The notes below the pieces were generated by a model. That model searched no databases. It was not told where the DNA came from and saw only the letters and a list, made by a program, of their open reading frames with translations. DNA of 39,852 bases from a virus, in IMG/VR virus record IMGVR_UViG_3300030061_001375, positions 6,661 to 46,512 of that record. One strand, 5' to 3'. Positions within the stretch are counted from its first letter, which is position 1. Each line of letters begins with the position of its first letter. Positions 3,448 to 37,820 of this stretch are shown piece by piece. The position numbers were made by a program, and so were the translations under genes.

Positions 3448-3448
3448 T

Positions 3449-10527: not shown

Positions 10528-12198
10528 ATGGAAATAAAAAATTTTAATTACGGTTCTAATTATTTAAGTAACGATGGTGAGTCTAGAAGTGTTCAAGTAC
10601 TAGGCGATAACGGCGCTATATTTAGTTTAGAAATACAAAGAACTGTAGGTTCTACTATTACATTTTATGATTTTGATACACAAACTTTTGGCTCTGCAAG
10701 AAAAAGATTAAAAAATAGAAAATGTGTTAATGGTGAGGCTAGCGTTATAGTACAGTTTCCTACTGGTGGATTGTCAGCTGGTAATAATCCTAATAAATAT
10801 GACTTGTATTTATACGCTCACAACGAGCTAGACACTTTTCATTTACCTTATACAGATGCTAGATTTGCAGATGGTAGTATTGACATAAACAATACAATAG
10901 GTTCTAGCTCTTCTGTATTACAAAGAGTTTTATATCAATACCCAAACTCTGTTTTACAAATAAGCGCGTTAACACCTTCTGCAGCTTCTGGTTTTAGTGG
11001 AGCAACTATTACTACTGCTGATTTTGATTTACAGTCAGGTAGCAATACTGGTTTAATACCATTTTCTTTTAGTGTTACTTTAGGTTCTACAAAAAAAGGT
11101 ATTATATTAAAACAACCTGGCTTAGGTGATCTAACTACTTTTACTACTTTAGGAATAACAGAACCTTATTTTAGAAATTATCCTTCTTCTATAGATCCGC
11201 CAGCAGAAAGCACTACTGAAGGCAATATAACAAATTTACCTTTAAGTGGTAGTACTACTTTTACTATGAGTGAAGAGGAAATAACTAGCACTGGTGTAAG
11301 TACTGAAAGCACGGTAACAGGTGTAGGTATTGATGGTATAAACGATTTAGATGGACCTGTTGTTGTAACTGGAGTTTCTGGTACAACAGTTACTGTTAAC
11401 AAGGCATTAACAATACCTGCTGCTGGCACAAACGCTGTGGTTAAATTTCAAGCTCTTAAATATCGTAGATGGCAAATAAACACTTCAAATACAAGCTTAC
11501 ACGCTTTAGTACCTGGTTTAAATATGCTTGGAGCTACTGCAGATTTTACTGCTAACGCAACAATTCAAGGTATTTTAGATGAAACAGAATTAACAAGAGA
11601 AATTGTACAACAAGATGGTAGCATTGAAGAAGAAATTTACACTATTACTAATGCAAATGTACCTGCTCTTGAAACACTTGGTAAAAAACCTACAATTGAA
11701 TATGGTTTAATATCTAATCAAGATGGTGTTGTTACTTTTAGCGCTGGCCAACAATTAACAAATGTTAGAAATACTAACAACAAATGTTACGCTTACGGTA
11801 AAACAAATATTAAAAGTTTAACAGGTATAGATATAACCATGACTGGTTTAAAAATAGAACTAGCAGATGTAATAACCACGGTAAATGACTCAGATGCTAA
11901 CGGTACAGATGCTTTAACTAGTTTTGATATAACAAGTACTAGCGGTATACTAGATGATGTTAGTACTGTTCATGGCGTTAATTTAAACTCTGGTGTAGCT
12001 ACACCTGTAGTTACAAATATATCTAGTAGTACTATTACTTTAACACCAGGTGGTCATGTGTTGCAAAATGGTCAAGGTTTAACATTTAAAGGCGCTGGTA
12101 GAGTATTTACAATAAGTGGTAATGTGCAAATAACAAATAACGCTGTAAGAAGTACAGTTCTTTATTTTGATTTAGACCGTCTCATAACAGCATCTTAG
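10528..12198 (+). CDS. Beta-rich virion structural protein, unknown role (556 aa)
   Basis: It starts one base after the previous stop and ends before the only sizeable spacer in this part of the operon (49 bases, A/T-rich, nothing recognisable). The protein is rich in Thr, Ser, Gly and Asn with repeating short strands and no catalytic motif, signal or membrane segment. Residues 1-130 are a compact alpha/beta part with a basic patch (ARKRLKNRK near 53), residues 200-300 resemble Ig-like or fibre strands. Placed between nozzle-like and internal virion genes, it is most likely a tail or fibre-adaptor protein. I do not recognise a named family. Confidence 0.6.
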   Translation: MEIKNFNYGSNYLSNDGESRSVQVLGDNGAIFSLEIQRTVGSTITFYDFDTQTFGSARKRLKNRKCVNGEASVIVQFPTGGLSAGNNPNKYDLYLYAHNELDTFHLPYTDARFADGSIDINNTIGSSSSVLQRVLYQYPNSVLQISALTPSAASGFSGATITTADFDLQSGSNTGLIPFSFSVTLGSTKKGIILKQPGLGDLTTFTTLGITEPYFRNYPSSIDPPAESTTEGNITNLPLSGSTTFTMSEEEITSTGVSTESTVTGVGIDGINDLDGPVVVTGVSGTTVTVNKALTIPAAGTNAVVKFQALKYRRWQINTSNTSLHALVPGLNMLGATADFTANATIQGILDETELTREIVQQDGSIEEEIYTITNANVPALETLGKKPTIEYGLISNQDGVVTFSAGQQLTNVRNTNNKCYAYGKTNIKSLTGIDITMTGLKIELADVITTVNDSDANGTDALTSFDITSTSGILDDVSTVHGVNLNSGVATPVVTNISSSTITLTPGGHVLQNGQGLTFKGAGRVFTISGNVQITNNAVRSTVLYFDLDRLITAS

Positions 12199-15452: not shown

Positions 15453-18400
15453 ATGTTTACATTAGGAGATAATCAATATACTTTAGAACAGCTTAAAGGT
15501 TTTGCTTCTAAAAGAGGCGAAGACTTTGACTCGTACTTTACGTCATTGCAACAAATAGGCTTGCAAGGTGAAGGTTATACTCCTAAAATAGAAGGTAGTA
15601 AAACAGCTGAGTTACCTCAAATATCACCTGATGACGTTAATTTGACTGAAGAGCAGTTTATGACAAGATATAAAGATGTTTTAGGCATGATGGGCTTTAA
15701 AGTTGAACAAGCAAATCGTGGTTTACCTGTAGGAAGAGGTTTGAAAGTTGGCGTTCCATTTACAGATGCTATAACTATAACTTCACCACCTGATGAAAAT
15801 AAAAACACTGTTTCAGAAACTTTTGGTGTAGATGTGCTTAATCTTTTTATGGGCATACAGCATAGAAATAAAGCTAGTAAAATTAATGATTTTATTAAGC
15901 AACATGCTGATAAAAGCGGCATTGATTTAAACTTTTTTTCAGCTGGTTATCAGACTGCAAGAGAAAAATATGACTCTGTAGATTTTGAAAATTTAAGTGC
16001 AAAAGAAATTTTTGAAATACAAAACGATATATCTAATGATATTTTTAATAGCGGTGATGCTGTTACTAAAGTTGTTGCTGATATAGCAGTTGGTATGCAA
16101 GATTTGCAAAAAAATACTATTAACAGCTTAAGCAAAAAATACAATGTAGCAGATATAAGTCAAAACTCTGAAGCTATGGAAGAGTATACTTTTATAATGG
16201 GTAAAGAATTTGACAAAAGGCTTGATGAAAGTGAAAATTTAAAAAGATTAGAAAAACTTACTGGAGAAATAGCTCAAAATGTTTTTAAACCTGCTTTAAA
16301 ACCGCAATTAGCAAAAGAAGAAGAAGATGAGGTTCTTAGTGAAACAGCGCTTGGTAGAGCAATAATTAAAGGTTTTAGAAGAAATCCAAAACTAGATAAA
16401 TTATTTAGAGCTATTTACGGAACTGCAGGTGTTAAATTTCCAAAAGCAGCTGCTGATTTCACTAAATTAAATATTGACGAAAGAATAGGAAATATAAGTG
16501 CTGAGCTAGAAGAATTAAAACAAAAAGATCCTAACGAAAAAATTAACGTTATAGGTGTTTTCAACTCCAAAATGCCTGAGTTAAATGTAAAAGGTGGTAT
16601 GTATACTGTTGCTGAAAGAATAGAGCAAATAAACAATATTATGCCTAAGTTAGAAGAACAAGCTAGTCAACAGTTTGCTAAAGGAAAAGAATATCAAGAA
16701 AAACTTCAAAAGCTTAATGTAGTAGAACTTTATGATGAAGATTTAAGTATTGATATAGACGGTGAAAAGCTATATAGTATGATAGGTGATCAAGGTGTTC
16801 AAATGCTTAGCGTTATGCTTAGTGGTGGTGGTTCTACTATGGTGCAAGAAGCTGGTAATGCTTATGCAGAAATAACATCGCAAAAAGCAGCTATGAAAAT
16901 GTTTCCAGATTTAGAGTTAAAAGAAGCTTTAAAAGCTTTTTATAAAGAAGATATTAAAACTCAAGCCGATGCTATATTAGAGTTAGTTAAAAATGGTGAG
17001 TCTGACACAGACATAGCTTTTAGCATTGGTGGTGTTAATGCTAGTTTAGATATGGCTGGTGCGTATATAGGATTTAGTAGAGCGGTAAAGTTTTTACCAA
17101 AAAAATTAACAAGACAGTTTATAGACGGAGAGTATATAAAGTTTTTACAAGGTGGTTATAAATCTTTTGGTAAAGATGTAGCTATTTCTATGTTTGCAGA
17201 AACTTTAACAGAAACTTTACAAGAAGGTGTTAATTTGTTCGGTGTGTCAAGAGCTACTGGCGTTAATCCTAAAGTAAAAGAAATTAAAAAAAGAGTATTA
17301 GAGGCTGGTACTCAAGCTATGCTTGCTACAGGCCCGCTGGTTGGTGGCGGTAAAATTGTAACTACAGGTTCAAAAGAGCTTTTAACACAATTTGTAGCGC
17401 ATACAAATCCTGATCATAAAAGAAATTTTATAAACCAAGCAAGAAAAAAAGTAGATTTAGAATACAAAAACGGCAAGAGATCAAAAGAAGATAGAGACGC
17501 AATACACGATCAGCTTGATATGATGGACGAGTATACTAACTTAGATCTTCTTGGTGATAATAAAAAATCAAAAGAAAACTATATTAACGCTGCAACAGAA
17601 GATGTTGTTTTAAGAAGACAACAAGAAAAATTAGAGTCTGAAAAAAAGACTCTTGAAAAGTTTGGCGGTGTTGATCCTATGGGTGGAAGAGGTAGTGTTG
17701 CTATTGATTTAGAGTTAAATAAAATTAAGAAAAAAAGAGAAGCTCTTAGTAAGAAAAAAATGAAAGCCGTACGAACGGGTAATTATTTGCAAAGTCTTAA
17801 AAGTATAAGCTATGCAATAAACAATACACAAGACGGTATATTAGGTGATAAAACAATAACTAGTTTTGAATTTGTTGAAGGGGCTCTAAAATATATTGAT
17901 GGTAAAAAATATAATATTACTAAAGGTCAAAGAGATAGACTTCAAAATGGAGAAAGCACTGCTATTACTTTTGGAAATGAAACTATAGCTGTAAAAGAAA
18001 ATGCTATTAACTTGATTAATAAAAATGATCCATATTCTACTAATTCAATACACCACGACGGTTTACATTTAATATTAAATGCATTTAATGATAAACAACT
18101 AAAAGAAGCAAGAAATTTATTAACTAAAGAGCTTGGTAAATCTACTGATCCGTTACAAATAAAAATGAACGAAGATATAGCTGGTAGATTTTTACAATAT
18201 GTAGCTGATCCAGATTATAAAGGTCGTGCTTTAGACGAAGAGTTTTTTACAGCAGTATCTGATGTTTACAAAGCTTATACCTTGGCAAATCTTAACACAG
18301 AAAGCGCCGGTGTGTTTGATCTTTTGGCAGAAGGATTTAGAAATATTTTTAGAAAAAATACTGGCATGAACTTAGATTTAGAAAAGCTAGATCCTGGTAC

Positions 18401-21400
18401 TATGTTAGAGTTCATAAAACAGTATAATGCTTTTAACGGTAAAACTGGTGTTGCTGCTCCTTCAAGAACAGCGTTAGTAGCTTCGGAAGTTGATGATAAA
18501 AACGCTAAAGAGTCTAAAGAAGCTTCAGATCAAGTACAACAAATATTTGAACAAAGAGGTGTGGCTGGTGCTATGGATATTATAGATTTATTTAAACCTA
18601 TAACAGCTAGAATAGCAGAAGAACGTAGAAACGCACCAAACTACGACAAAGAGCTTTTAATGAGTGAAATAGAAATAGGTAAGCGTGGAATATTTGATTT
18701 AATTAGAGATTACAAAGTTGAGTCTGGCGTGCCATTAGCCGCTTATATTAACACTAATTTAAGAAGAAGAGCTATAGAAGCTTCTAGAAGAGTTTTAGGT
18801 GAAGAGTTTACAGAAGACGTTTCAACAAGAGTTGATATAGCCGAAAGAGAAGTAGATGTAGAAATATCAAGACCACAAAGAAAAAAAATTAGATTAGCTG
18901 AAAGATTAGGTGTTAAAAATAAAGTTGATAAAATTATATCTAAAAAAATATCAGACTTAGATATAAACAATTTAAACTTTAAAAACTTAAAAAACTTAGT
19001 ACCTGAAATAGTTGGTGAGCTTTATGGCATATCGCCTAAAAAAATAGAAAACTTAGCTAATATAACTAAAAAAGAGTTACAGTCAGCTCAAATGTTTATT
19101 AATAAAAATGCTGATTTATTAATAGCTATGTTACCAGAAGGTGCTACATCAGGTGGTACAGCAACTGGCGTGCCTAAAACTTTATTAAACGAATTTTATA
19201 CTAAAACTAGTAGAGCTAAAATGGCTGAAACTGGCACTAAAGCTGGTTTAGCAATACAGGTTAAAAATAAAAATATAGATAAAACTAAGTTTTTAGAAGT
19301 TTTTGGCATTGTTGACGGTAAACCCGTACGTACAGACAGAAATACGTCAGCTCGGGTTTTAGCAATAGCTAATCAAACAGGCAAAATGCTTACTAATCAG
19401 GCTGTAAGACAACAGCTTTTAGACGATGGCCAAGTAGCTAGTGCTTTGTTTAAAATAGAAGACGGTAAATCTCCGGCTATGGAGGCAAAGGCTGCCGCTA
19501 ATTTAACGCCTGAAAAACTCATGGAGTTTATGTCTAGAGTGCCTAGTGTTGGTAATATAATATCACCATTAATGCCATTATATAGAAAAAAATATTTGAC
19601 TGAAGCTATGGATATTGTATATAGCGGTGTTTTAAGTGCTAACGAAATAGTTGACTTAACAAATGATATAGACAAAATAATAAAGCAATATGTAAAAGAG
19701 CCGGTTGATAATGTTAGAATAACTAAAAAACCTGAAGATTTTAATAAGTATTTAATTGACGAGTTATTAAATTTTGACTTAAGCATATTAGAAATAACAG
19801 GTGTTAAAGAAACTAAAAACGAGCTTTTTTTAGATTTAGATTTAATTAAAGAACAAAGAGCCGGTGCTGTAATTGCTGTTAAAAAATTAATTGATAAACA
19901 TGGTATCGAGCAAGCTCTTAGATATGCTTTAGCTTTTATGAAACCTATGTACGCTGGCGCTTCTAAAATAGCTGACGGTAGATATGACGTAAACAGTGAA
20001 GGTGATGTGTTTTACATAGGCGACGAAGCTTTTGAGCAATTAGAAATATATAAAAGACAAGAAAAAGCAAAGCCAGAAGGAGCGTTGTCACAAGTTTTAA
20101 TGAACAGAGCTCAAGTATTTAAAAATGTACCTGACTTTGTAAATGTTTTAAATAAAGGTGTACCTGGTTTAAATATAGTTTATACAGGCGCAAACTTAAG
20201 CACGGCAATTTTTAATTATAATGGTAAACCTATAAGCGTAAACACTAGCATTATAGATCAAACTAGTCAAAACTTTATAAATAAAATAAAAAACGAAGGA
20301 GAAGCTGCTGTTAAAAAACAAAGTTTAAAAGAAGCTAAAGAAGCTAGAGAGTTAATTAATGATCTTATAACTATATTTAATGAAGAAAATAGCTTGTCTA
20401 ATAAAAATTTAGCTATGATGCTTTTTAGCTTAAACTCTAACATGCAAACTCCTATGCGTAGAGCGGCTAACTTATTTTATGTTTCAGAAAACTATAACAC
20501 ATTTAAAAATCCAGGCAGCCAATTAGAGTATGAACACATGATACCTGCTAACTGGATGATGATTAAAACATTGCAAGCTAATTTAGCAGAAGGCGGTATA
20601 AAAAACTTAGATAATTTTTATAAAAACTATAACGTAGCTATTATACCTAAAGAAATGAATACTATTATCAACTCTAAAGAAGTTGGTTATAAATCTACTA
20701 TGCCTAGCGATTATAAGTTAACAGATCCTGCTTGGAAAAGATATTATAACAATAGAACTTTAGGTAAAAAAGATATGGTAGCTATTAGAGAGTTAGGTAC
20801 TAGTAAGCTTGTAGGTTCAAATCATATAAAAGTTAAATTTATAAAAGATTCTAAAAACGCTCAAACGTTTGAAAAAGCAATACAAAAAAGTAGAGAAGTA
20901 GGTGTTGAAAGCAAAGGTATAAGTATTTTAGATTTTGATGACACTCTAGCGGTTAGTCAATCATTAGTTAAGTTTACTAGACCAGACGGTACAACAGGGA
21001 CTTTAACTCCTGCGCAATATGCTAGTACTTATGAAAGTTTATTAGGACAAGGTTATGTATTTGATTTTTCTGAGTTTAACAAAGTTATAAAAGGTAGAAC
21101 AGCGCCATTGTTTCAAAAAGCTTTAAAACTTGCTAATAAATTTGGCACAAAAGACATGTTTGTTTTAACAGCTAGACCGCCTGAGTCTGCTGTTGCTATA
21201 TTTGAATTTTTAAAAGCAAATGGTTTAAATATACCTTTAAAAAATATAACTGGTCTTGCAAACTCTACGGCTGAAGCAAAAGCGTTATGGGTTGCTGAGA
21301 AAGTCGCTGATGGTTACAATGACTTTTATTTTGCTGACGATGCGTTGCAGAATGTGCAGGCAGTTAAAAATATATTAGATCAATTTGATGTTAAATCAAA

Positions 21401-23465
21401 AGTTAGACAAGCAAAAGGAACTGAGAGTAAAGCTGCTATGAACAAAGCGTTTAATGAAATACTTGAAAACGTTACTGGCATTGGCGCTGATAAAAGATTT
21501 GGCGCTGCTAAAGCTAGAAAACGTGGTGCTAGCAAAGGTAAATTTAGATTTTTTATACCACCATCACATGAAGATTTTGTAGGTTTATTATATAACTTTA
21601 TGGGTAAAGGTAGAATAGGTGATAGTCATAGAGACTTTTTTGAAAAAACTTTAATAAAACCTTTAAACAGAGCTTTTAGAGAGCTTGATACTGCTAGACA
21701 GTCTATAGCAAACGATTACAAAGCTTTAAATAAACAAATGCCTGAAGTTAAAAGTTTGTTTAAAAAAGAAGTGCCAACAGGTGATTTTACTTATGAAGAC
21801 GCTATAAGAGTTTATTTGTTTGATAAGCACGGGCATACTGTACCTGGTTTAAGTAAAAAAGATCAAGCAGATCTTGTTAGCTTAGTTCGTAATGATGAAA
21901 AGTTATTAGCTTATGCTGAGGCTTTAAACATAATATCAAAGCAAGAAGATTATGTTGCTCCTACAGAGACTTGGGACACAGGTGATATTAGAGTTGATTT
22001 AGATGATGCTACTGGTAGAGTTGGTAGAGCTCAGTTTTTTAAAGAGTTTAGTGATAATGTTGATATTATATTTTCTACAGAAAATTTAAATAAAATTGAA
22101 GCTGCTTACGGTAAAGAGATGAGGGACTCTATATTAGATATGCTTTATAGAATACAAACAGGTAGAAACAGGCCACAAGGTCAAGACGGTTATGTAAATG
22201 TATTTGTAGATTATTTAAATGGATCTGTTAGTACTGTAATGTTTTTTAATGTTAGATCAGCTATATTACAGCAATTATCTTTTGTAAACTTTATAAACTT
22301 TGCTGATAATAATTTATTTGCCGCTGCTAAAGCTTTTGCTAATCAAAAACAATACTGGGCTGATTGGGCTATGTTGTTTAACTCTGACTTTATGAAACAA
22401 AGACGTGGTGGTATTAGAACAGATGTTAACGGCGCTGAATTAGCTCAAGCTGTAGCAAAGTCAGATAGTCCAACTCGTACTGTTATACAGAAGTTGTTAC
22501 AAATAGGTTTTTTACCTACACAAATTGGTGATAATATTGCGATTGCTTCTGGTGGTGCTACAATGTATAGAAATAGACTTAACACTTATTTAAAACAAGG
22601 TTTAAGTAAAAAAGAAGCTCAAGAAAAAGCTTTTGCTGATTTTCAAGAAATAGCAGAAGCTACACAGCAGTCTGCAAGACCTGATATGGTTTCAAAACAA
22701 CAGTCTTCTGTTGCTGGTAAAATAATATTAAATTTTCAAAACGTTACTTCGCAGTATAACAGATTAATGAAAAAATCTTTTTCAGATTTAATTAATAGAA
22801 GAATATCTAAAGGTTATACTACTCAAGCTCAAAGTGATTTAGCTAATGTAAATAAAATATTATATTATGGCGCTGTACAAAATATAATATTCTATAGTTT
22901 ACAGTCTGCTTTATTTATGATGTTGTTTGATGATGACGATGAAGAGTTTTTTGACAAGAAAAAAGAAAGAGTTTTAAACGGTAGCTTAGACAGTATATTA
23001 AGAGGTGCTGGTATATATGGTGCTATTGCTTCTACGCTAAAAAATGTTGTTAAAAAATTTAGAGAACAACGTGAGGCTAAAAGACCAGACATGACTGCTG
23101 TTGCTATAGAAGCTTTAAACTTATCACCTGTTATAGGTATTAAAGCTAGCAGAATAGTAGGCGCGGAAAAAACTTTAGTGTATGACAAAAGAGCTATAGA
23201 AAAAATGGGTGATTTTGATATTGATAATCCACATTTTGATGCATATACAGCTTATGTTGAAGCGATACTTAATCTACCATTAAATAGAATTTATAGAAAA
23301 ACTATAAACACTAGAAACTCTTTTGACTCACAATACAAAGCATATCAAAGAGTATTATTCTTTAGTGGTTATACCACATATAATTTAGGTATAAAAAACA
23401 AAGAAGTTGAAAAATACAAAAAAAGAAGAAAAAAGAAACAAGGTAAAAAAATACATATTTATTAA
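15453..23465 (+). CDS. Giant multidomain virion protein (gp16-like position) with HAD-phosphatase-like domain (2670 aa)
   Basis: Several modules can be read. Residues 867-872 are HHDGLH, a zincin-like helix in which the usual Glu of HExxH is Asp, followed downstream by an acidic DEEFFTAVSD helix. Residues about 1080-1125 (VPLAAYINTNLRRRAIEASR) resemble the sigma-like segment found in large phage polyvalent proteins. Around 1692-1740, EYEHMIPANW and NYNVAIIPKEMN hint at an HNH-like element. Residues 1827-1965 form a HAD domain with DFDDTLA (motif I), LTAR (motif II, Thr1906), a Lys-containing helix and ADDALQN (motif IV). The last 500 residues contain the conserved-looking QQSARPDMVSKQQSSVAGK segment, a hydrophobic stretch near 2470-2490 and a very basic tail. 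It probably is ejected with DNA; which domains are active is unknown. Confidence 0.7.
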   Translation: MFTLGDNQYTLEQLKGFASKRGEDFDSYFTSLQQIGLQGEGYTPKIEGSKTAELPQISPDDVNLTEEQFMTRYKDVLGMMGFKVEQANRGLPVGRGLKVGVPFTDAITITSPPDENKNTVSETFGVDVLNLFMGIQHRNKASKINDFIKQHADKSGIDLNFFSAGYQTAREKYDSVDFENLSAKEIFEIQNDISNDIFNSGDAVTKVVADIAVGMQDLQKNTINSLSKKYNVADISQNSEAMEEYTFIMGKEFDKRLDESENLKRLEKLTGEIAQNVFKPALKPQLAKEEEDEVLSETALGRAIIKGFRRNPKLDKLFRAIYGTAGVKFPKAAADFTKLNIDERIGNISAELEELKQKDPNEKINVIGVFNSKMPELNVKGGMYTVAERIEQINNIMPKLEEQASQQFAKGKEYQEKLQKLNVVELYDEDLSIDIDGEKLYSMIGDQGVQMLSVMLSGGGSTMVQEAGNAYAEITSQKAAMKMFPDLELKEALKAFYKEDIKTQADAILELVKNGESDTDIAFSIGGVNASLDMAGAYIGFSRAVKFLPKKLTRQFIDGEYIKFLQGGYKSFGKDVAISMFAETLTETLQEGVNLFGVSRATGVNPKVKEIKKRVLEAGTQAMLATGPLVGGGKIVTTGSKELLTQFVAHTNPDHKRNFINQARKKVDLEYKNGKRSKEDRDAIHDQLDMMDEYTNLDLLGDNKKSKENYINAATEDVVLRRQQEKLESEKKTLEKFGGVDPMGGRGSVAIDLELNKIKKKREALSKKKMKAVRTGNYLQSLKSISYAINNTQDGILGDKTITSFEFVEGALKYIDGKKYNITKGQRDRLQNGESTAITFGNETIAVKENAINLINKNDPYSTNSIHHDGLHLILNAFNDKQLKEARNLLTKELGKSTDPLQIKMNEDIAGRFLQYVADPDYKGRALDEEFFTAVSDVYKAYTLANLNTESAGVFDLLAEGFRNIFRKNTGMNLDLEKLDPGTMLEFIKQYNAFNGKTGVAAPSRTALVASEVDDKNAKESKEASDQVQQIFEQRGVAGAMDIIDLFKPITARIAEERRNAPNYDKELLMSEIEIGKRGIFDLIRDYKVESGVPLAAYINTNLRRRAIEASRRVLGEEFTEDVSTRVDIAEREVDVEISRPQRKKIRLAERLGVKNKVDKIISKKISDLDINNLNFKNLKNLVPEIVGELYGISPKKIENLANITKKELQSAQMFINKNADLLIAMLPEGATSGGTATGVPKTLLNEFYTKTSRAKMAETGTKAGLAIQVKNKNIDKTKFLEVFGIVDGKPVRTDRNTSARVLAIANQTGKMLTNQAVRQQLLDDGQVASALFKIEDGKSPAMEAKAAANLTPEKLMEFMSRVPSVGNIISPLMPLYRKKYLTEAMDIVYSGVLSANEIVDLTNDIDKIIKQYVKEPVDNVRITKKPEDFNKYLIDELLNFDLSILEITGVKETKNELFLDLDLIKEQRAGAVIAVKKLIDKHGIEQALRYALAFMKPMYAGASKIADGRYDVNSEGDVFYIGDEAFEQLEIYKRQEKAKPEGALSQVLMNRAQVFKNVPDFVNVLNKGVPGLNIVYTGANLSTAIFNYNGKPISVNTSIIDQTSQNFINKIKNEGEAAVKKQSLKEAKEARELINDLITIFNEENSLSNKNLAMMLFSLNSNMQTPMRRAANLFYVSENYNTFKNPGSQLEYEHMIPANWMMIKTLQANLAEGGIKNLDNFYKNYNVAIIPKEMNTIINSKEVGYKSTMPSDYKLTDPAWKRYYNNRTLGKKDMVAIRELGTSKLVGSNHIKVKFIKDSKNAQTFEKAIQKSREVGVESKGISILDFDDTLAVSQSLVKFTRPDGTTGTLTPAQYASTYESLLGQGYVFDFSEFNKVIKGRTAPLFQKALKLANKFGTKDMFVLTARPPESAVAIFEFLKANGLNIPLKNITGLANSTAEAKALWVAEKVADGYNDFYFADDALQNVQAVKNILDQFDVKSKVRQAKGTESKAAMNKAFNEILENVTGIGADKRFGAAKARKRGASKGKFRFFIPPSHEDFVGLLYNFMGKGRIGDSHRDFFEKTLIKPLNRAFRELDTARQSIANDYKALNKQMPEVKSLFKKEVPTGDFTYEDAIRVYLFDKHGHTVPGLSKKDQADLVSLVRNDEKLLAYAEALNIISKQEDYVAPTETWDTGDIRVDLDDATGRVGRAQFFKEFSDNVDIIFSTENLNKIEAAYGKEMRDSILDMLYRIQTGRNRPQGQDGYVNVFVDYLNGSVSTVMFFNVRSAILQQLSFVNFINFADNNLFAAAKAFANQKQYWADWAMLFNSDFMKQRRGGIRTDVNGAELAQAVAKSDSPTRTVIQKLLQIGFLPTQIGDNIAIASGGATMYRNRLNTYLKQGLSKKEAQEKAFADFQEIAEATQQSARPDMVSKQQSSVAGKIILNFQNVTSQYNRLMKKSFSDLINRRISKGYTTQAQSDLANVNKILYYGAVQNIIFYSLQSALFMMLFDDDDEEFFDKKKERVLNGSLDSILRGAGIYGAIASTLKNVVKKFREQREAKRPDMTAVAIEALNLSPVIGIKASRIVGAEKTLVYDKRAIEKMGDFDIDNPHFDAYTAYVEAILNLPLNRIYRKTINTRNSFDSQYKAYQRVLFFSGYTTYNLGIKNKEVEKYKKRRKKKQGKKIHIY

Positions 23466-24533: not shown

Positions 24534-24812
24534 ATGTCAAAAGAATTAAACGAAGATACTAGTTTTAAAGTAAGCGTAAAAACGCTAATAGCTATAGGCT
24601 TAGGTTTGTCAACACTAATAGGCATGTGGTTTACACTACAAGCTGACATTGCAGAGGCGAAAGAGTTGCCAGTTTCTACACCGGAAGTTACGCGTATGGA
24701 ATTTGATATGAAAGATCAAATGATTCGCAACACTATTATGGAAACAAAAAAAGATGTTGAAGAGATTAAAGAGTCTTTAGAAAAAATAGAAGATAAACTA
24801 TATAACAGATGA
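24534..24812 (+). CDS. Single-membrane-span coiled-coil protein, holin or spanin candidate (92 aa)
   Basis: After about 15 charged residues comes one membrane helix (about 17-36, LIAIGLGLSTLIGMWFTL), then a Pro/Thr linker and a heptad-patterned helix rich in Glu and Lys (about 55-90). The layout, N-in with a periplasmic coiled coil, is that of class III holins, inner-membrane spanins or small tail-associated membrane proteins. It starts 19 bases after the barrel-like gene and overlaps the next gene by four bases (ATGA), so it is translationally coupled to the exported thioredoxin-like protein. A role in lysis is likely but not proven; the peptidase gene is 12.5 kb downstream. Confidence 0.6.
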   Translation: MSKELNEDTSFKVSVKTLIAIGLGLSTLIGMWFTLQADIAEAKELPVSTPEVTRMEFDMKDQMIRNTIMETKKDVEEIKESLEKIEDKLYNR

Positions 24813-25159
24813 AAAAATTAGACATGTCAAAGGTCGTTTATGCTTTGATGATGATAATAGTATTTACTATATCACAAGCTTTTGGCCAAATAACAGTAAC
24901 ACACTTTAATGCTGAGTGGAACTCTGCTAATAAAGTTGAGTGGTTTGGCAAACTAGACGACTGTGACCTTGCAGATGTTGATATTATTAAAGAACCAAAG
25001 TTACAAGATAAACACAAAATAGTTATTGTACCTACTATAATTATATTTAAAGACGGAGAAGAGATAAAGAGGTACCAGGCAGATCTTAGTTTTAAACTGC
25101 TTGCTACAAGAAAAGAGATACAAGGATTTATTAACGAACAAATAATGAGCGACTTTTAA
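24809..25159 (+). CDS. Exported thioredoxin-fold protein lacking the CXXC active site (116 aa)
   Basis: Residues 1-26 are a signal peptide (basic start, hydrophobic core, cleavage before Gln27). The mature part follows thioredoxin: strand VTHFNAEW, then residues 37-42 WNSANK aligned exactly with WCGPCK so that both cysteines are Asn, and later VPTIIIFKDGEEIKRYQ with the cis-Pro (Pro75) that marks the fold. Only one Cys (52) remains in the mature chain, so it cannot be a dithiol oxidoreductase. It overlaps the coiled-coil membrane protein by four bases. It may bind a periplasmic partner, as thioredoxin does for T7 polymerase in the cytoplasm, or form a tail or lysis accessory; these roles are speculation. 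Confidence 0.75.
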   Translation: MKKLDMSKVVYALMMIIVFTISQAFGQITVTHFNAEWNSANKVEWFGKLDDCDLADVDIIKEPKLQDKHKIVIVPTIIIFKDGEEIKRYQADLSFKLLATRKEIQGFINEQIMSDF

Positions 25160-25161
25160 TT

Positions 25162-25545
25162 ATGCCAGGATCAGAAAAACAAAACGATATGTTTGACGCT
25201 TCGCCTTTAGATTTTAAACAAAAAGGTAATCCGTTTCCTGTAACTAGTTGTGGTAGACGTAGAAACCCAGGTGGTCCTTTGTTTAGAAAAAAAAGTAACG
25301 AGCCTAGAAAAACTACAAAAGGTAAAGGTCGTAATTTTAGAACTGTGGAAGAAGGAGCAGGTATGACTGCAAAAGGTGTTAAAGAATATAGGCGTAAAAA
25401 TCCTGGTAGTAAATTAAAAACAGCTGTAACGGGTAAAGTAAAACCTGGTAGTAAAGCTGCTAAACGTAGAAAATCATTTTGCGCTAGATCAAAAAGTTGG
25501 ACTGGTGAAAGAGGTAAAGCCGCTAGACGTAGATGGAAATGTTAA
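25162..25545 (+). CDS. Small very basic protein with Arg/Lys-rich C-terminal motif (127 aa)
   Basis: The first 35 residues are mixed, then the chain becomes strongly basic. Residues about 63-127 (EGAGMTAKGVKEYRRKNPGS, then GSKAAKRRKSFCARSKSW and a C-terminal RRRWKC) match a segment I recall as recurrent in small proteins of marine phages; I cannot name the family with certainty. Two Cys are near the end, one of them the last residue. No membrane or signal segment. It opens a run of eight tiny basic genes up to 27710. Nucleic-acid binding, virion DNA condensation or host-factor binding are all possible. Confidence 0.7.
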   Translation: MPGSEKQNDMFDASPLDFKQKGNPFPVTSCGRRRNPGGPLFRKKSNEPRKTTKGKGRNFRTVEEGAGMTAKGVKEYRRKNPGSKLKTAVTGKVKPGSKAAKRRKSFCARSKSWTGERGKAARRRWKC

Positions 25546-25555
25546 AATAAAAATT

Positions 25556-25723
25556 ATGAAATTACAACAAAGTTCAGCATTAAAAAAAATATCTGCAGCT
25601 TGTAAGTCTGCGGCTAAACGTAAGTTTAAAGTATGGCCTAGCGCTTATGCTTCTGGTTGGGGTGTAAGATGTACTAGGGCTGGTGGGCCAAGTAAATTTG
25701 GCGGTGGTAAAAAGAAAAAATAA
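25556..25723 (+). CDS. Small basic protein of the KFKVWPSAYASG type (55 aa)
   Basis: I chose ATG 25556 because it lies in an A-rich leader after the previous stop; an in-frame ATG at 25505 would overlap the upstream gene by 41 bases. The core ACKSAAKRKFKVWPSAYASG with a following WGVRC and a glycine/lysine tail resembles a short domain found in many phages and some large viruses (I believe DUF5872, from memory). Two Cys could coordinate metal or pair. The stop overlaps the next start by one base (TAATG). Function unknown. Confidence 0.75.
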   Translation: MKLQQSSALKKISAACKSAAKRKFKVWPSAYASGWGVRCTRAGGPSKFGGGKKKK

Positions 25724-25992
25724 TGTACACGCAAGGTAACAACCCGTTTAAAAAACGTATGGGTGATTTTAAACACTCTGACGCGCCAGACGCTAAAGGT
25801 AAATTTAAAAGTTTATCACCTTCTGCGTTGGCAAGCTGGATGATTAAGTCTCGTAAAGGTAATTTAAGTAGAATTATTAGTAGTTTAAATCAACAAGTTG
25901 TTTTTAATAGAGGCAAAAATCCTAGTTATGCTCGTAAAATGAAAACAACTATGAATATAGTTAGAAAAAGATTAGGTAAAGATAAAAAATAA
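25723..25992 (+). CDS. Small basic protein, unknown function (89 aa)
   Basis: The start shares its A with the preceding stop, and its own stop shares a base with the next start, so three genes are chained by TAATG junctions. The chain is basic with a helical middle part (LSPSALASWMIKSRKGNLSR about 31-50) and a Lys/Arg-rich end; no Cys, no signal, no membrane segment. The N-terminal YTQGNNPFKKR is like the start of the gene at 27323 (YVQKNNPIKKK), so the two proteins share an N-terminal tag-like motif, a detail suggesting a common partner or targeting role. Function unknown. Confidence 0.7.
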   Translation: MYTQGNNPFKKRMGDFKHSDAPDAKGKFKSLSPSALASWMIKSRKGNLSRIISSLNQQVVFNRGKNPSYARKMKTTMNIVRKRLGKDKK

Positions 25993-26444
25993 TGGCGTAT
26001 AGAGGTGTTTTAAAAGCTAGAATAAATAAAATTTATGGTGGAGATGTAACTATAAGTAAGTGTAAAAAGCTTAAAGCAAGACCTAATGCTACACCAAGAG
26101 ACAAACAATTATGTAATTGGTTTATAAATATGCAAACAAACAGACCTTCTCCAATATCAAAACGTAAAGATCCGGTTGTAGGTACTGGCAAAAAACCAAA
26201 AGGTAGTGGTAGACGTTTGTATACAGACGAAAACCCTAAAGACACTGTAAGTATAAAGTTTGCAACACCGGCAAATGCTAGAGCAACAGTTGCAAAGGTA
26301 AAAAAAATAAGTAAACCTTACGCGCGTAAAATACAAATATTAACAGTAGGTGAGCAACGAGCAAAAGTAATGGGTAAATCACAAGTTGCTAGTATTTTTA
26401 AACGTGGTAAAGAAGCAATAAGAAAAGCAAGAAAAAATGTTTAA
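25992..26444 (+). CDS. Basic protein of unknown function (150 aa)
   Basis: The chain is Lys/Arg-rich throughout with two Cys in the N-terminal third (near residues 24 and 41) separated by KKLKARPNATPRDKQL. The second half has an alpha/beta look: DTVSIKFATPANARATVAKV, then KIQILTVGEQRAKVMGKS and a basic C-terminal helix. That pattern (strand-helix-strand with Ala/Arg) could be a small RNA- or DNA-binding fold, but I recognise no family. It overlaps the PAP2-type gene by eight bases, implying coupled translation. Confidence 0.65.
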   Translation: MAYRGVLKARINKIYGGDVTISKCKKLKARPNATPRDKQLCNWFINMQTNRPSPISKRKDPVVGTGKKPKGSGRRLYTDENPKDTVSIKFATPANARATVAKVKKISKPYARKIQILTVGEQRAKVMGKSQVASIFKRGKEAIRKARKNV

Positions 26445-26979
26445 AGACTTTGATATAAGTAGTTTAAAAAAAATGAAGCCGCCAGGTGATAGTACTTTTG
26501 ATACTATGCAAGAGATCAAAGCACTTGCTAAAATAAAAATGAATAAATCTTTTGTAAAGAAGTTTGACGATCAAGAAAAAGCTTTTAAACAAACAGCTGA
26601 AAGAGAAGGTATAAAAGATTATGATAGTAGCATAGCAGGTAAACTAATAGAAAAATCTGCTCCTGTTATTATGAAATTAAAAAAACATTTTAATAGACCA
26701 AGACCAAAAGTGTTGGCTAAAAAAATGAATATAAAAATGAAAGATATTGAAATGTCTTCAATGAAGACGCCATCATATCCTTCAGGACACTCTGCTCAAG
26801 GTATGTTAATAGGAAAAGTGTTAGGCGATAAATATCCTAAATCAAGGAAAGCGTTTTATGCAACGGCTAATAATATATCTGATAGCAGAAATATTGCGCA
26901 TGCTCATTATAAAAGTGATAGTGAGTTTGGCAAAAAACTAGGAATAAAAATGTACAACCATATAAAAAACAAAATTTAA
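26437..26979 (+). CDS. PAP2-family phosphatase, soluble, all three signature motifs (180 aa)
   Basis: The three PAP2/haloperoxidase signatures are present in order: K82-x6-R89-P90, P115-S116-G117-H118, and S150-R151-x5-H157-x3-D161. In the family His157 attacks the phosphate and His118 with Lys82, Arg89 and Arg151 complete the site, so the enzyme should be active. Unusually there is no signal peptide and no membrane helix, unlike bacterial lipid-phosphate phosphatases; it resembles a minimal soluble class A-type core. The first 60 residues are basic. It starts inside the end of the previous gene (8-base overlap) in the middle of a run of small basic genes. Substrate is unknown: a nucleotide, lipid phosphate or phosphorylated signal are candidates. 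Confidence 0.85.
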   Translation: MFKDFDISSLKKMKPPGDSTFDTMQEIKALAKIKMNKSFVKKFDDQEKAFKQTAEREGIKDYDSSIAGKLIEKSAPVIMKLKKHFNRPRPKVLAKKMNIKMKDIEMSSMKTPSYPSGHSAQGMLIGKVLGDKYPKSRKAFYATANNISDSRNIAHAHYKSDSEFGKKLGIKMYNHIKNKI

Positions 26980-26980
26980 A

Positions 26981-27322
26981 ATGAAAAAAGACCCTGCAAT
27001 GAAAATGAAAAAAGCTCCTGCAAAAAAAATGATAGATACTGATAAATTATCTGGCGGTAAAAAAAGATTAGTAGAGGGAGTAGCTGCTAAAGCTGGCATG
27101 CCTATGAAAAAAGAAGCTATGGCTAAAATGAAAAAATCAATGGCTACGCTTAAAAAATCAATGGCTCAACTTAAAAAAGACGAAAAGTCTGCTATGATGA
27201 TGAAAAAGAAAGGTTCAGCTATGATGATGAAAACTAAAAAGTCTATGGCTATGATGAAGAAAAAATCAGCTATGATGATGAAGAAAATGGCTACTGCAAC
27301 TAAAATGATGAAGAAAAAGTAG
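26981..27322 (+). CDS. Extremely Met/Lys-rich low-complexity protein (113 aa)
   Basis: By count about 36 Lys and 25 Met make up 61 of 113 residues. Residues 1-45 include a less repetitive piece (KLSGGKKRLVEGVAAKAGM), then degenerate units of the kind KKSMATLKK and SAMMMKKK run to the end. No Cys, Trp, Tyr, Phe or His. The start is one base after the PAP2 stop and the stop is directly followed by the next ATG. ATG/AAA-rich DNA on one strand raises the idea of non-coding repeat, but the clean frame and tight gene junctions support a real gene. It could bind DNA or membranes; no family is recognised. Confidence 0.7.
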   Translation: MKKDPAMKMKKAPAKKMIDTDKLSGGKKRLVEGVAAKAGMPMKKEAMAKMKKSMATLKKSMAQLKKDEKSAMMMKKKGSAMMMKTKKSMAMMKKKSAMMMKKMATATKMMKKK

Positions 27323-27601
27323 ATGTACGTTCAGAAGAACAATCCTATAAAGAAAAAGCAAAAAGGCGGTGGTACGCGTAAAACGTGTTTGCCTGCCGCT
27401 AAAATTGCTAGTATGAGCAAGTCTGAAAGACAGCGTTTAGTTTCTGCTAAACAAAAGTCTGGTAAGGCCGGAAAGTATAGACGTTCTTCAAAAACAAATG
27501 TAAAAGGCGCTCGTAAAAAAGGCGCTACATTACGTGATTGGTTTCAAAAAGAAGACTGGAGACAAGTTAACAACCCTAAAAAGAAATGTGGTGAAAAATA
27601 A
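27323..27601 (+). CDS. Small basic protein with a conserved-looking C-terminal half (92 aa)
   Basis: The N-terminus YVQKNNPIKKKQKGGG is followed by TRKTCLPAAKIASMSKSERQ, a basic middle and a C-terminal GATLRDWFQKEDWRQVNNP ending in a Cys near the tail. I recall such a Cys-Leu-Pro-Ala-Ala-Lys opening in small proteins of marine phages, without assigned function. Two Cys (21 and 89) may pair or hold a metal. It begins right after the Met/Lys-rich gene and is followed by a 30-residue gene. Soluble; no signal peptide. Nucleic-acid contact is likely given the charge, but this is inference. Confidence 0.7.
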   Translation: MYVQKNNPIKKKQKGGGTRKTCLPAAKIASMSKSERQRLVSAKQKSGKAGKYRRSSKTNVKGARKKGATLRDWFQKEDWRQVNNPKKKCGEK

Positions 27602-27617
27602 AAAGTCAAGTTTTAAA

Positions 27618-27710
27618 ATGAAGTCACCAATGAAATGTTGGAAAACATATAAGCAAGTAGGTTATAAAAAGAAAGGAGGCAGAAGAGTGCCTAACTGTGT
27701 TAAAAAATAA
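27618..27710 (+). CDS. Micro-gene, basic Cys-containing peptide (30 aa)
   Basis: ATG 27618 to TAA 27708-27710 encodes 30 residues: MKSPMKCWKTYKQVGYKKK, then GGRRVPNCVKK. The CW..Y..VG..KKGGRRVPNCV pattern looks like a short motif I have seen at the ends of other marine-phage proteins, so conservation rather than chance is likely. The gene fills the 111-base gap between its neighbours exactly, with a leader of 16 bases before it and two bases after it. Two Cys flank the basic core. Function unknown; it belongs to the basic gene cluster. Confidence 0.65.
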   Translation: MKSPMKCWKTYKQVGYKKKGGRRVPNCVKK

Positions 27711-27712
27711 AT

Positions 27713-30106
27713 ATGAAAAATTTACTATTAATTTTATTATTACCGTTTACGCTGCTAGCACAAAAACAAGCTGTTATACATGTAACAACAGATAATTATC
27801 CAAGCGAAACGTATTGGACTTTATTTGCTGATAGTTTATATGGTGATACTATTTGTAATGTATTAGCTGGTTATTATACACTGCCAAACACAACATATAC
27901 AGACACTTGTTATATAAACGATAGTGTTACTGATATAACATTTTTAATGCGAGACACTTATGGTGACGGTATGAATGGTAGTTATTACGTATCAATATGT
28001 GGTGATACTGTAGTTAATTATCCAAACCCAAACTTTCAGTCAGGTATATATTCTAATAGACAAGTACCGACTTGTCTACCAAACCCACCACCACCACCGC
28101 TAGGACCGTGTGTACCAACGCTTGTTAATATTAACTTAGATCAATATCCTGAAGAAACGTCTTGGGATATAAAAGATAGTTTAGGTAACGTATTATTTTC
28201 AGGTGGACCTTATAACAATGTGCCAGACTATGAACCACAATTTAAGTTTGCATGCTTACCACCAGGTGAATTAACTTTTACTATATATGATTTATACGGT
28301 GATGGTTTAGAAGGTAGCTTGTGGGGTGGACAAAACGGTTCATATTATGTAATGCAATGTGGTGATACAGTTGTTTACGGTAACGACCCTGCTTTTGGTT
28401 ACGATTCAAGTCATGTTTGGCAAGCAGACACGTGTATACCGCCACCGCCTGTTTATGGTTGCATGGATGATGACTACGTAGAATATAACGAGCTAGCAAC
28501 AATAGATGATAGTAGCTGTACAATTTTAAAAATATATGGTTGTATTGATAGTACAATGTACAATTACGATCCGCTAGCAAATACAATGGAAGATATTGAT
28601 TCGTGTGGTTATACTTTAATACTACATGATCTTGTTGGTAATGGTTGGGTAGGTACAAGGTTAGAAATATGGCAAGACGCAGATACATCTGTATTTTACA
28701 TGAACCAACCTGCTTTTAATCAAGTGTTTAATTTAGGTTTATACGCGCCAGACGAAGTATACGCTAAACTTTTTGTTAGTCAACAAACGCAACATACAGC
28801 GTTAGAGTGTGGATTTACTTTATTAAATCCATTTGGCGATACTACTATAAGTGTACAACCGCCTTTTATAATACCATTTTTTAAATACGAAGCGCAAACG
28901 TATTGTGGTAATATATGTGAAGAAAAAGTTTATGGTTGTTTAGACAGTTTAGCTTTTAATTATATTGACACTGCTAATACAGCTGATGATTGTTATTATT
29001 ATCCTGGTTGTATATCTGCAGCATACTTACAATATCACGTTGATACAGCAAACGGATATTATACAGATATAAATGTACAAGACAGTTGTGGTGTATACGC
29101 TACATTTGGTTGTACTGACAGCACGGCATTTAATTATGATAGTTTAGCTAATGTAGATAACGGTGGTTGTTTACCTGTAGTTGTAGGTTGTATGCAGCCA
29201 GTAGCATTTAATTATAATCCGCTTGCTAATACACCTGACACTTGTATACCAGTTATATTTGGTTGTACCAATGTGACAGCGCTTAACTACGATAGTTTAG
29301 CTAATACAGATGATGGTAGTTGTATTGCAATAGTGTTTGGTTGTACTAATCCGCAAGCTTTTAATTATGATCCACAAGCAAACGTAGATGACGGTAGCTG
29401 TATAGCTATAGTATATGGATGTACTGATCCTACTATGTTTAATTATAATCCTAACGCAAACGTAGACAACGGATCGTGTATAGCATTTATTTACGGTTGT
29501 ATGGATAGCACAATGTTTAATTATAATCCTTTAGCAAATGCAACTAATAATAGCATCCCTTGCGTCCCTTTTATTTATGGCTGTACTGATCCTAGTATGC
29601 TTAACTATAATCCTCAAGCCAATACAGAGGATTTCAGCTGCATTGCTTATGTTTATGGTTGTACTGATAGTACTGCTTTTAACTATAATCCGGAGGCTAA
29701 TACTGACAATGGTTCGTGTTTGGCTGTGGTTGAAGGATGTATGGATGTTAATGCGTATAACTATAATATCGATGCAAACGTTAGTGATTCCTTGGCATGC
29801 TTGTATGCGGCAAATTGTATAACTGGCCCTGGTAATCCTTATTGGTTAAACGACCCTTGTTATGCTTGGGTATTAGAAGTTGATGAATATTGCTGTCAAA
29901 ACGAGTGGGACACTATATGTCAAGCAACATACGATTATTGTGACGGTACTTGGTCTGGTCCGTTATTAACAAGAACACAAGCTGAGAAGAAGCTAGTAGC
30001 TGTTACTGATATTCTTGGTAGACCAACAAAAATAATTAAAAACAAGCTTTTGTTCTTTATATATAATGACGGAAGCGTAGAACAAAAATTAATAAAAAAC
30101 AAATAA
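27713..30106 (+). CDS. Secreted flavobacterial-type repeat protein with T9SS-like C-terminal tail (797 aa)
   Basis: Residues 1-16 are a signal peptide (cleavage before Gln17). Two copies of a beta-sandwich unit follow (about 20-122 and 138-243), each with 'YPxETxW', 'YGDG..GSYYV..CGDT' and a closing Cys, separated by a proline-rich linker PNPPPPPLGP. Next come twelve Cys-flanked units of the type GCTDPTMFNYNPNANVDNGS, interrupted by another sandwich-like segment (about 302-400). A Cys-rich CYAWVLEVDEYCCQNEWD module precedes the tail LVAVTDILGRPTKIIKNKLL then FFIYNDGSVEQK, which matches the ending of many flavobacterial type IX secretion cargo proteins. Presence in a phage operon is odd: it may be a fibre, or a host-surface protein made during infection. 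Confidence 0.8.
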   Translation: MKNLLLILLLPFTLLAQKQAVIHVTTDNYPSETYWTLFADSLYGDTICNVLAGYYTLPNTTYTDTCYINDSVTDITFLMRDTYGDGMNGSYYVSICGDTVVNYPNPNFQSGIYSNRQVPTCLPNPPPPPLGPCVPTLVNINLDQYPEETSWDIKDSLGNVLFSGGPYNNVPDYEPQFKFACLPPGELTFTIYDLYGDGLEGSLWGGQNGSYYVMQCGDTVVYGNDPAFGYDSSHVWQADTCIPPPPVYGCMDDDYVEYNELATIDDSSCTILKIYGCIDSTMYNYDPLANTMEDIDSCGYTLILHDLVGNGWVGTRLEIWQDADTSVFYMNQPAFNQVFNLGLYAPDEVYAKLFVSQQTQHTALECGFTLLNPFGDTTISVQPPFIIPFFKYEAQTYCGNICEEKVYGCLDSLAFNYIDTANTADDCYYYPGCISAAYLQYHVDTANGYYTDINVQDSCGVYATFGCTDSTAFNYDSLANVDNGGCLPVVVGCMQPVAFNYNPLANTPDTCIPVIFGCTNVTALNYDSLANTDDGSCIAIVFGCTNPQAFNYDPQANVDDGSCIAIVYGCTDPTMFNYNPNANVDNGSCIAFIYGCMDSTMFNYNPLANATNNSIPCVPFIYGCTDPSMLNYNPQANTEDFSCIAYVYGCTDSTAFNYNPEANTDNGSCLAVVEGCMDVNAYNYNIDANVSDSLACLYAANCITGPGNPYWLNDPCYAWVLEVDEYCCQNEWDTICQATYDYCDGTWSGPLLTRTQAEKKLVAVTDILGRPTKIIKNKLLFFIYNDGSVEQKLIKNK
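29108..29800 (+). repeat. Nine contiguous Cys-flanked 'GC(T/M)..xFNYNP.AN..D.SC' units
   Basis: The coding sequence carries nine back-to-back units of about 24-28 codons, each starting Gly-Cys and ending Cys, with a conserved Asn-Tyr-Asn/Asp core; three more diverged units lie upstream at about 28456, 28535 and 28930. The DNA copies differ at many synonymous sites, so the array is maintained as protein, not as recent DNA duplication. Such units are common in secreted proteins of marine Bacteroidetes and probably bind calcium or each other through the Asp/Asn residues (inference). Confidence 0.85.
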
Positions 30107-37364: not shown

Positions 37365-37820
37365 ATGATTAGCGAACATATAAGCGATAAAGAAGGTGTG
37401 TATAGCAGAACTGCATTACGCCTTGGAATAAATAATAAACCAAATAGAAAACAGTTAAATAATATGATATTATTAGCTGACGAAATATTTGAACCACTCC
37501 GCACATATACAAATGGTCCTATAAAAATAAATAGTTTTTTTAGATCACCAGAATTAAATAAAGCTATAGGTGGTAGTGAAAAGTCACAACACTGTCATGG
37601 GCAAGCTATAGATATTGATGACACATACGGCCATTTAACTAACGCTGAGATGTTTAGTTTTATTAGAGAACACTTAGACTTTGATCAAATGATATGGGAG
37701 TTTGGTGACGATGAAAACCCAGACTGGGTACACGTTAGCTACGTGTCACCTCAAGAAAATAGAAATAGATGTTTAAAAGCTTACAAACATCAAGGTAAAA
37801 CTAAATATAAAATTATATAA
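37365..37820 (+). CDS. M15-family peptidase, probable endolysin (151 aa)
   Basis: The zinc site of D-Ala-D-Ala carboxypeptidase-type (M15) enzymes is complete: S74-x-H76-x-x-G79-x-A81-x-D83 and a second ligand in W121-V-H123, with Asp120 in the place of the catalytic acid/base. Upstream FFRSPELNKAIGG is also typical. Length fits a single-domain phage peptidoglycan peptidase; there is no signal peptide and no binding domain, so release through a holin is expected. It sits near the end of the late operon, after the fibres. The two candidate holin genes are at 24534 and, on the other strand, 38394. Confidence 0.85.
   Translation: MISEHISDKEGVYSRTALRLGINNKPNRKQLNNMILLADEIFEPLRTYTNGPIKINSFFRSPELNKAIGGSEKSQHCHGQAIDIDDTYGHLTNAEMFSFIREHLDFDQMIWEFGDDENPDWVHVSYVSPQENRNRCLKAYKHQGKTKYKII

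Follow-up and report, generated by a model that had tools for sequence, protein, structure and literature searches.

A predicted, non-exported PAP2-superfamily phosphatase in a late cassette of small basic phage proteins

The DNA analysed here, referred to as the window, is a stretch of 39,852 nucleotides covering positions 6661–46512 of a 46.5-kb virus record. The part of the record upstream of the window contains portal-, scaffold- and capsid-like ORFs. The portal matches those of Maribacter phage Panino (46%), Flavobacterium elemo phages (43%) and Cellulophaga phages, and the window phage belongs with podovirus-like phages whose relatives infect Cellulophaga and Flavobacterium. Structural genes occupy 1–15 kb and a peptidase M15 endolysin gene lies at 37.4 kb, which places the gene studied here, encoding a PAP2 acid-phosphatase-like enzyme, in the late region. 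The genes of this region that concern us are:

15453..23465, + strand: giant late protein, 2670 aa, with a HAD (DFDDT) domain near 20700–21500
25162..25545, + strand: module A (DUF6321), basic, 127 aa (Pfam PF19846, E 3.5e-11; homologues in pelagiphages and cyanophages)
25505..25723, + strand: module B ('KFKVWPSAYASGWGVRCT'), basic, 72 aa (PHROG 727, E 2.5e-6; module profile)
25723..25992, + strand: module C ('HSDAPDAKGKF..RKRLGKDKK'), basic, 89 aa (module profile; fusion sequences)
25992..26444, + strand: module D1–D2, basic, 150 aa (ORF coordinates, module profile); its end overlaps the PAP2 start
26437..26979, + strand: PAP2 acid-phosphatase-like enzyme, 180 aa (Pfam PF01569, PDB sequence matches, AlphaFold model)
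26981..27322, + strand: Lys/Met-rich low-complexity basic protein, 113 aa (sequence)
27323..27601, + strand: module E ('CLPAAKIASMSK..ATLRDWFQKEDW'), basic, 92 aa (module profile; fusion sequences)
27534..27710, + strand: small basic ORF with 'CWKTYKQVGYKKKGGRRVPNC' (module F-like), 58 aa (PHROG 9737, 4359, 727)
37365..37820, + strand: peptidase M15 endolysin (Pfam PF08291, E 2e-13; PHROG 894, E 2e-28), in the same late region

The ORF at 26437–26979 is a genuine PAP2 enzyme. Its score against Pfam PF01569 (32.8 bits, E 6.4e-8) exceeds the curated cut-off of 27.2, so the assignment is not a chance one. All of its motifs are intact (K82-x6-R89-P90, P115-S-G-H118 and S150-R151-x5-H157-x3-D161), the catalytic residues being K82, R89, S116, G117, H118, R151, H157 and D161. 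The 5' end of the gene shares 8 nt with the upstream basic ORF (25992–26444), and the downstream basic ORF begins at 26981, one base past the PAP2 stop. The initial annotation, made from the sequence alone, had described a soluble PAP2 phosphatase with a complete catalytic site in a late operon, flanked by tiny basic proteins of which one overlaps it. The Pfam match, the motifs and the gene context bear out this part of it, whereas its contrast with lipid phosphatases did not hold and its suggestion of a lipid substrate is disfavoured, as described below. A scan for promoters and terminators gave counts no higher than those in shuffled sequences.

PAP2 relatives are encoded by at least 595 IMG/VR stretches, overwhelmingly from environmental viromes; the carriers are uncultured and mostly marine. 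The phage-isolate collection contained no full-length relative, and three cultured-phage records gave weak matches (49–54% coverage, 32–35% identity). BFVD contains a nameless viral protein that is 64% identical to PAP2, so sequences of this family are on record already, though unexplained. We retrieved 22 relatives from IMG/VR with patterns lying outside the active-site motifs, so that they were not preselected for catalytic residues, and found all eight of these residues to be invariant in 18 aligned members. Loss of active-site residues from homologues, which the initial annotation had named as an observation that would speak against it, was looked for directly: 85 of 87 relatives retain the whole signature (the remaining two differ by SR→AR only), and so do 37 of 37 further members reached through neighbouring modules. 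These 22-, 18-, 87- and 37-member sets provide the unbiased measure of conservation, as the tree described below and some of the residue counts used sequences chosen to contain the motif. The dN/dS of the PAP2 gene was 0.13–0.25 against close relatives and 0.05–0.15 among another set, and the gene is under purifying selection. One phage contig (L067) carries two PAP2 copies, at 6034–6564 and 11237–11767.

Among proteins of solved structure, the nearest sequences are class A nonspecific acid phosphatases. Single-sequence searches matched 7f18/7f17 (E 5e-9 and 7e-9) and PhoN (E 6.5e-7), the PhoN match reaching 3e-12 with a family profile. Class A acid phosphatases carry the signature KX6RP-X12-54-PSGH-X31-54-SRX5HX3D, which the window protein matches with gaps of 24 and 31 residues; against the PhoC equivalog model NCBIfam NF045654 it scored 23.3 bits, below the cut-off of 430. 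In an AlphaFold model built from 18 relatives (pLDDT 94), the window protein has the helical bundle typical of PAP2, with K, R, SGH, R and H in place as catalytic residues. Structural alignment to PAP2 enzymes, one of the checks proposed at the outset, gave PhoN (2akc) as the best match, over the whole length (Z 19.0, 2.5 Å, 174 residues, 21% identity). By family, Z was 16.5–19 for class A phosphatases, up to 14.6 for haloperoxidases, 14.3 for LpxE and 6.8–9.7 for PgpB. We consider it very unlikely that the protein is a vanadium-dependent haloperoxidase-like enzyme: haloperoxidases have the fold and the vanadate/phosphate site in common with it (Z 12–15), but class A phosphatases match clearly better (Z 16.5–19 versus up to 14.6), and PAP2 has no N-terminal part of haloperoxidase size. 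A purely structural use of the fold, which we regard as no more probable, is argued against by an active site that is both intact and conserved.

Class A acid phosphatases are soluble and are exported by means of a cleavable signal peptide. Across the 87 PAP2 relatives, we found neither the hydrophobic N-terminus of these secreted enzymes nor a membrane helix of the kind present in PgpB/LpxE-type lipid phosphatases (maximum KD over 19 residues, 1.38; median, 0.44), so that the lack of both, first remarked on in the window protein, extends to these relatives. Being soluble is ordinary, because the closest relatives are soluble too; what is unusual is the absence of an export signal, since those relatives are exported, together with the phage context. 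The missing signal is more striking because three late genes of the same window (at 23465, 24809 and 27713) carry clear signal peptides. The phage protein shares its full-length fold and signature with PhoN of Salmonella, PhoC and acid phosphatase 7f17 and, besides lacking a signal peptide, differs from them in being shorter (180 aa) and phage-encoded inside a basic-protein cassette. The initial comparison with usual lipid phosphatases was misleading, as the nearest relatives in both sequence and structure are these soluble enzymes. PgpB and LpxE do belong to the PAP2 superfamily and have the catalytic residues in common with the phage protein, and the gene lies in a late region shared with an endolysin, as might that of an enzyme dephosphorylating lipids or undecaprenyl-pyrophosphate at the envelope or in the course of lysis. 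However, no relative has a membrane helix or signal peptide, and PAP2 is clearly farther from these membrane enzymes than from class A phosphatases (PhoN Z 19; PgpB Z 6.8–9.7). Topology, together with the distance in both sequence and structure, therefore leads us to reject a membrane lipid phosphatase; we consider a lipid-directed role very unlikely and disfavour the lipid intermediate (for example, undecaprenyl-pyrophosphate) named initially as a substrate. The gene encodes a soluble, non-exported PAP2-superfamily protein with a class A acid phosphatase fold and a complete site, for which phosphatase activity is predicted.

A survey of the neighbours in homologous loci, also proposed initially, showed that the basic context is conserved: in 84 loci, the gene directly 5' of PAP2 is strongly basic in 89%, compared with 6.6% of genes more than 7 places away. 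Profiles resolved the basic proteins into combinations of modules A (DUF6321), B, C, D1, D2, E and F, which recombine freely and are found alone or in varied fusions. PAP2 itself is fused to module C (L071, L092 and L094), and to modules F and E (PAP2–F–E; L051, L078 and L093), while in L063 its partner is a HExxH peptidase-like domain; the fused members are scattered on the tree rather than forming single clades. PAP2 is optional in the cassettes: of 79 loci retrieved through module E it is present in 34, and of 78 retrieved through module D in 4. These observations show that PAP2 is an exchangeable, sometimes fused module of a late cassette of small, very basic, DNA-binding-like proteins. 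Modules A and D2 are shared with the marine-phage basic cassette proteins of the DUF6321 and PHROG 727/3477 types. They stand in late clusters or in multidomain proteins: in cultured pelagiphages they lie near lysis genes (a D2 homologue in Pelagibacter phage HTVC033P is 75% identical), and in T4-like cyanophages they form part of multidomain proteins whose genes are placed between the pair of terminase genes or downstream of that for the major capsid protein. Unlike in the window phage, we found no PAP2 in these cultured phages.

Several further features of the basic proteins were seen. In Synechococcus phage Bellamy, gp123 (L116, 3938–5794) consists of basic modules strung around a DUF192 domain and is encoded between terminase genes. 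The motif [NS]P[FLMI]KK occurs 83 times in basic cassette proteins of podovirus-like loci, against 4.9 expected, with 48 of the 83 within the first 15 residues; the window proteins at 25723–25992 and 27323–27601 are examples. An analogue of this motif in the PAP2 N-terminus is weak, and we made no use of it. The model of module D is of moderate confidence (pLDDT 74). Many DNA viruses have kept a small protein, DUF5754/Tlr6F (PMC4642659); membership of module B in this family was confirmed neither by Pfam nor by a direct family search, and we do not claim it.

Two genome-collection matches with 37–38% identity (L104 and L105) led to 23 more viral loci. In the tree, the T4-like loci formed one clade of 24, sister to 87 podovirus-like sequences (support for the pair, 0.95); the label T4-like rests on a prohead protease and an N-terminal tag. 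The catalytic residues are invariant across both clades. PAP2 proteins of the sister clade start with MIKLKELL (the first 12 residues of one are MIKLKELLELRN), and unrelated neighbouring proteins start alike: in the sister-clade loci (L280–L302), the tag was present on 18 of 323 unique non-PAP2 ORFs, compared with 1.0 in shuffles. The motif [LI]xE, a site of the prohead-protease type, was found with its last residue at position 10 or 12 in 9 of 10 unrelated tagged families versus 2.2% of 404 other ORFs; among the tagged PAP2 proteins, only 13 of 20 have it ending at residues 9–12. In phage T4, the internal head proteins IPI, IPII, IPIII and Alt, which are basic proteins and an enzyme, are packaged by means of an N-terminal capsid-targeting sequence, of which residues 4 and 7 serve targeting and residues 8 and 10 cleavage; the first ten residues of an internal protein suffice for packaging (PMC9026906). 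The sister-clade tag has the register of these T4 sequences, and we take it as a putative capsid-targeting sequence.

A gp21-type prohead protease was found on 1 of 12 T4-like PAP2 contigs (E 1e-26), which are possibly fragments. Among the tagged neighbours of the T4-like PAP2 are one metallopeptidase-like and one HAD protein, and both kinds recur elsewhere, as the peptidase-like domain fused to PAP2 in L063 and as the HAD domain of the 2670-aa window protein, which matches the tagged HAD protein adjoining PAP2 in the T4-like locus L300 (BLASTP 33%, E 2e-21). Replication genes, for example those for primase and SbcD, come after PAP2 on the T4-like contigs. The putative tag, MIKLKxLLxE or MITLKExYxLxE, occurs in ten otherwise unrelated families (L280–L302, L104, L105 and L304 (16700–17470)), among them HAD, metallopeptidase-like and P-loop proteins. 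Locus L298 encodes a 539-aa PAP2–cytidylyltransferase-like fusion (3111–4730) adjoining a 1060-aa protein that starts with MKTLSEDLIKRFLKE. Counts of [LI]xE in cyanophage multidomain basic proteins (8, 5, 0, 12 and 9 versus 4.1, 4.2, 2.1, 7.1 and 4.7 expected) gave no convincing enrichment.

Our favoured reading, which we hold at about even confidence, is that PAP2 is a late, virion-associated, injected cytoplasmic phosphomonoesterase rather than a lipid phosphatase, packaging being the inferred part. As in its family, the enzyme would hydrolyse small phosphomonoesters through a phospho-histidine intermediate, with H157 as the nucleophile and H118 as the acid. It would be produced late in infection, packed into the head together with DNA and the basic proteins, and delivered into the cytoplasm of the next host, where it may dephosphorylate a soluble nucleotide-like substrate. 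Head packaging and injection are best supported for the T4-like clade, and we extend them to the window phage through the shared family and the logic of the cassette. In favour of this reading, we counted the identity of the enzyme and its conserved active site, purifying selection, the absence of export, the basic cassette, the fusions, the joining of the two phage clades, the tag with its [LI]xE motif, the prohead protease, the recurring peptidase-like and HAD partners and T4 biology. Against it, we counted the window PAP2 itself, whose N-terminus (MFKDFDISSLKKMKPP) has no capsid-targeting tag of the T4 internal head protein type, the incomplete occurrence of [LI]xE in tagged PAP2 proteins and of the protease on T4-like contigs, the replication genes after PAP2 in T4-like phages, and the basic cassettes that often occur without PAP2; in the window phage, where no profile search was made for it, a prohead protease was not noticed. 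The phage PAP2 has no sequence relation to IPI, IPII, IPIII or Alt; only its T4-like clade has the tag in register, whereas the PAP2 of the podovirus-like window phage is untagged. Crassviruses, which are phages of Bacteroidota, store cargo proteins that are ejected with the genome (PMC10172136), and the likeness of PAP2 to these is by analogy only.

PAP2 might instead act late in the cytoplasm without being packaged. Its gene would then be an auxiliary metabolic one that serves to recycle phosphorus or nucleotides, the enzyme freeing phosphate or nucleosides from nucleotides of the host as infection draws to a close. The complete active site, the lack of export and the nonspecific family fit this, as does the origin of nearly all relatives in environmental viromes; phosphorus can be limiting in such environments. 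However, this explanation does not account for the fusions to basic modules and peptidase or for the shared N-terminal tag of the T4-like clade, and a phosphorus-salvage enzyme would be expected to be early or exported, so we regard it as rather unlikely. By either delivery route, the enzyme could serve as a counter-defence or anti-alarmone factor that removes phosphate from a host nucleotide signal. T4 internal proteins, which are basic and are ejected into the host, can be anti-restriction (PMC9026906), and the non-exported PAP2 is accompanied by peptidase-like and HAD proteins. By contrast, a search of a defence-system library gave no match to defence-system families, and neither sequence nor structure points to a particular nucleotide; we consider this role improbable, although the results speak neither for nor against the alarmone and defence-signal substrates named initially. 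Our reading of PAP2 as an injected phosphomonoesterase has a more specific form: in two or more unrelated types of phage, the acid-phosphatase-like enzyme would be packaged alongside basic proteins that condense DNA, and would remove phosphate from a signalling or defence nucleotide of the host as infection begins. To this form we likewise assign a low probability.

Neither the PAP2 superfamily nor the notion that head proteins can be injected is new. A literature search found no phage PAP2 study of this kind, and the use of a non-exported acid-phosphatase-type PAP2 as a module of cassettes or head cargo by two types of phage appears to be undescribed in the literature searched. The modular cassette and the capsid-targeting-like tag are the stronger point, and were absent from the initial annotation. 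If our proposal is correct, a phosphatase enters the cell along with the genome of common uncultured marine phages, as Alt and the internal proteins do with that of T4; this would add an enzyme class to known virion cargo. It would also give a first functional handle on the very widespread, unexplained small basic proteins of marine phages. The MIKLKELL tag would then mark head cargo in T4-like marine phages, and searches with it would list injected proteins of uncultured phages.

Other genes of the late region also drew attention. Upstream of the cassette, the window encodes a thioredoxin-fold protein with a signal peptide (24809–25159) that is kept in 44 of the compared loci. Directly after the cassette lies the gene for a secreted 797-aa protein (27713–30106) with many 'YGCTDPxAxNYNPxANxDDGSC' repeats. 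In about 20 loci (L040–L049, L056 and L083–L088), GroEL- and GroES-like genes are found a few places downstream of PAP2.
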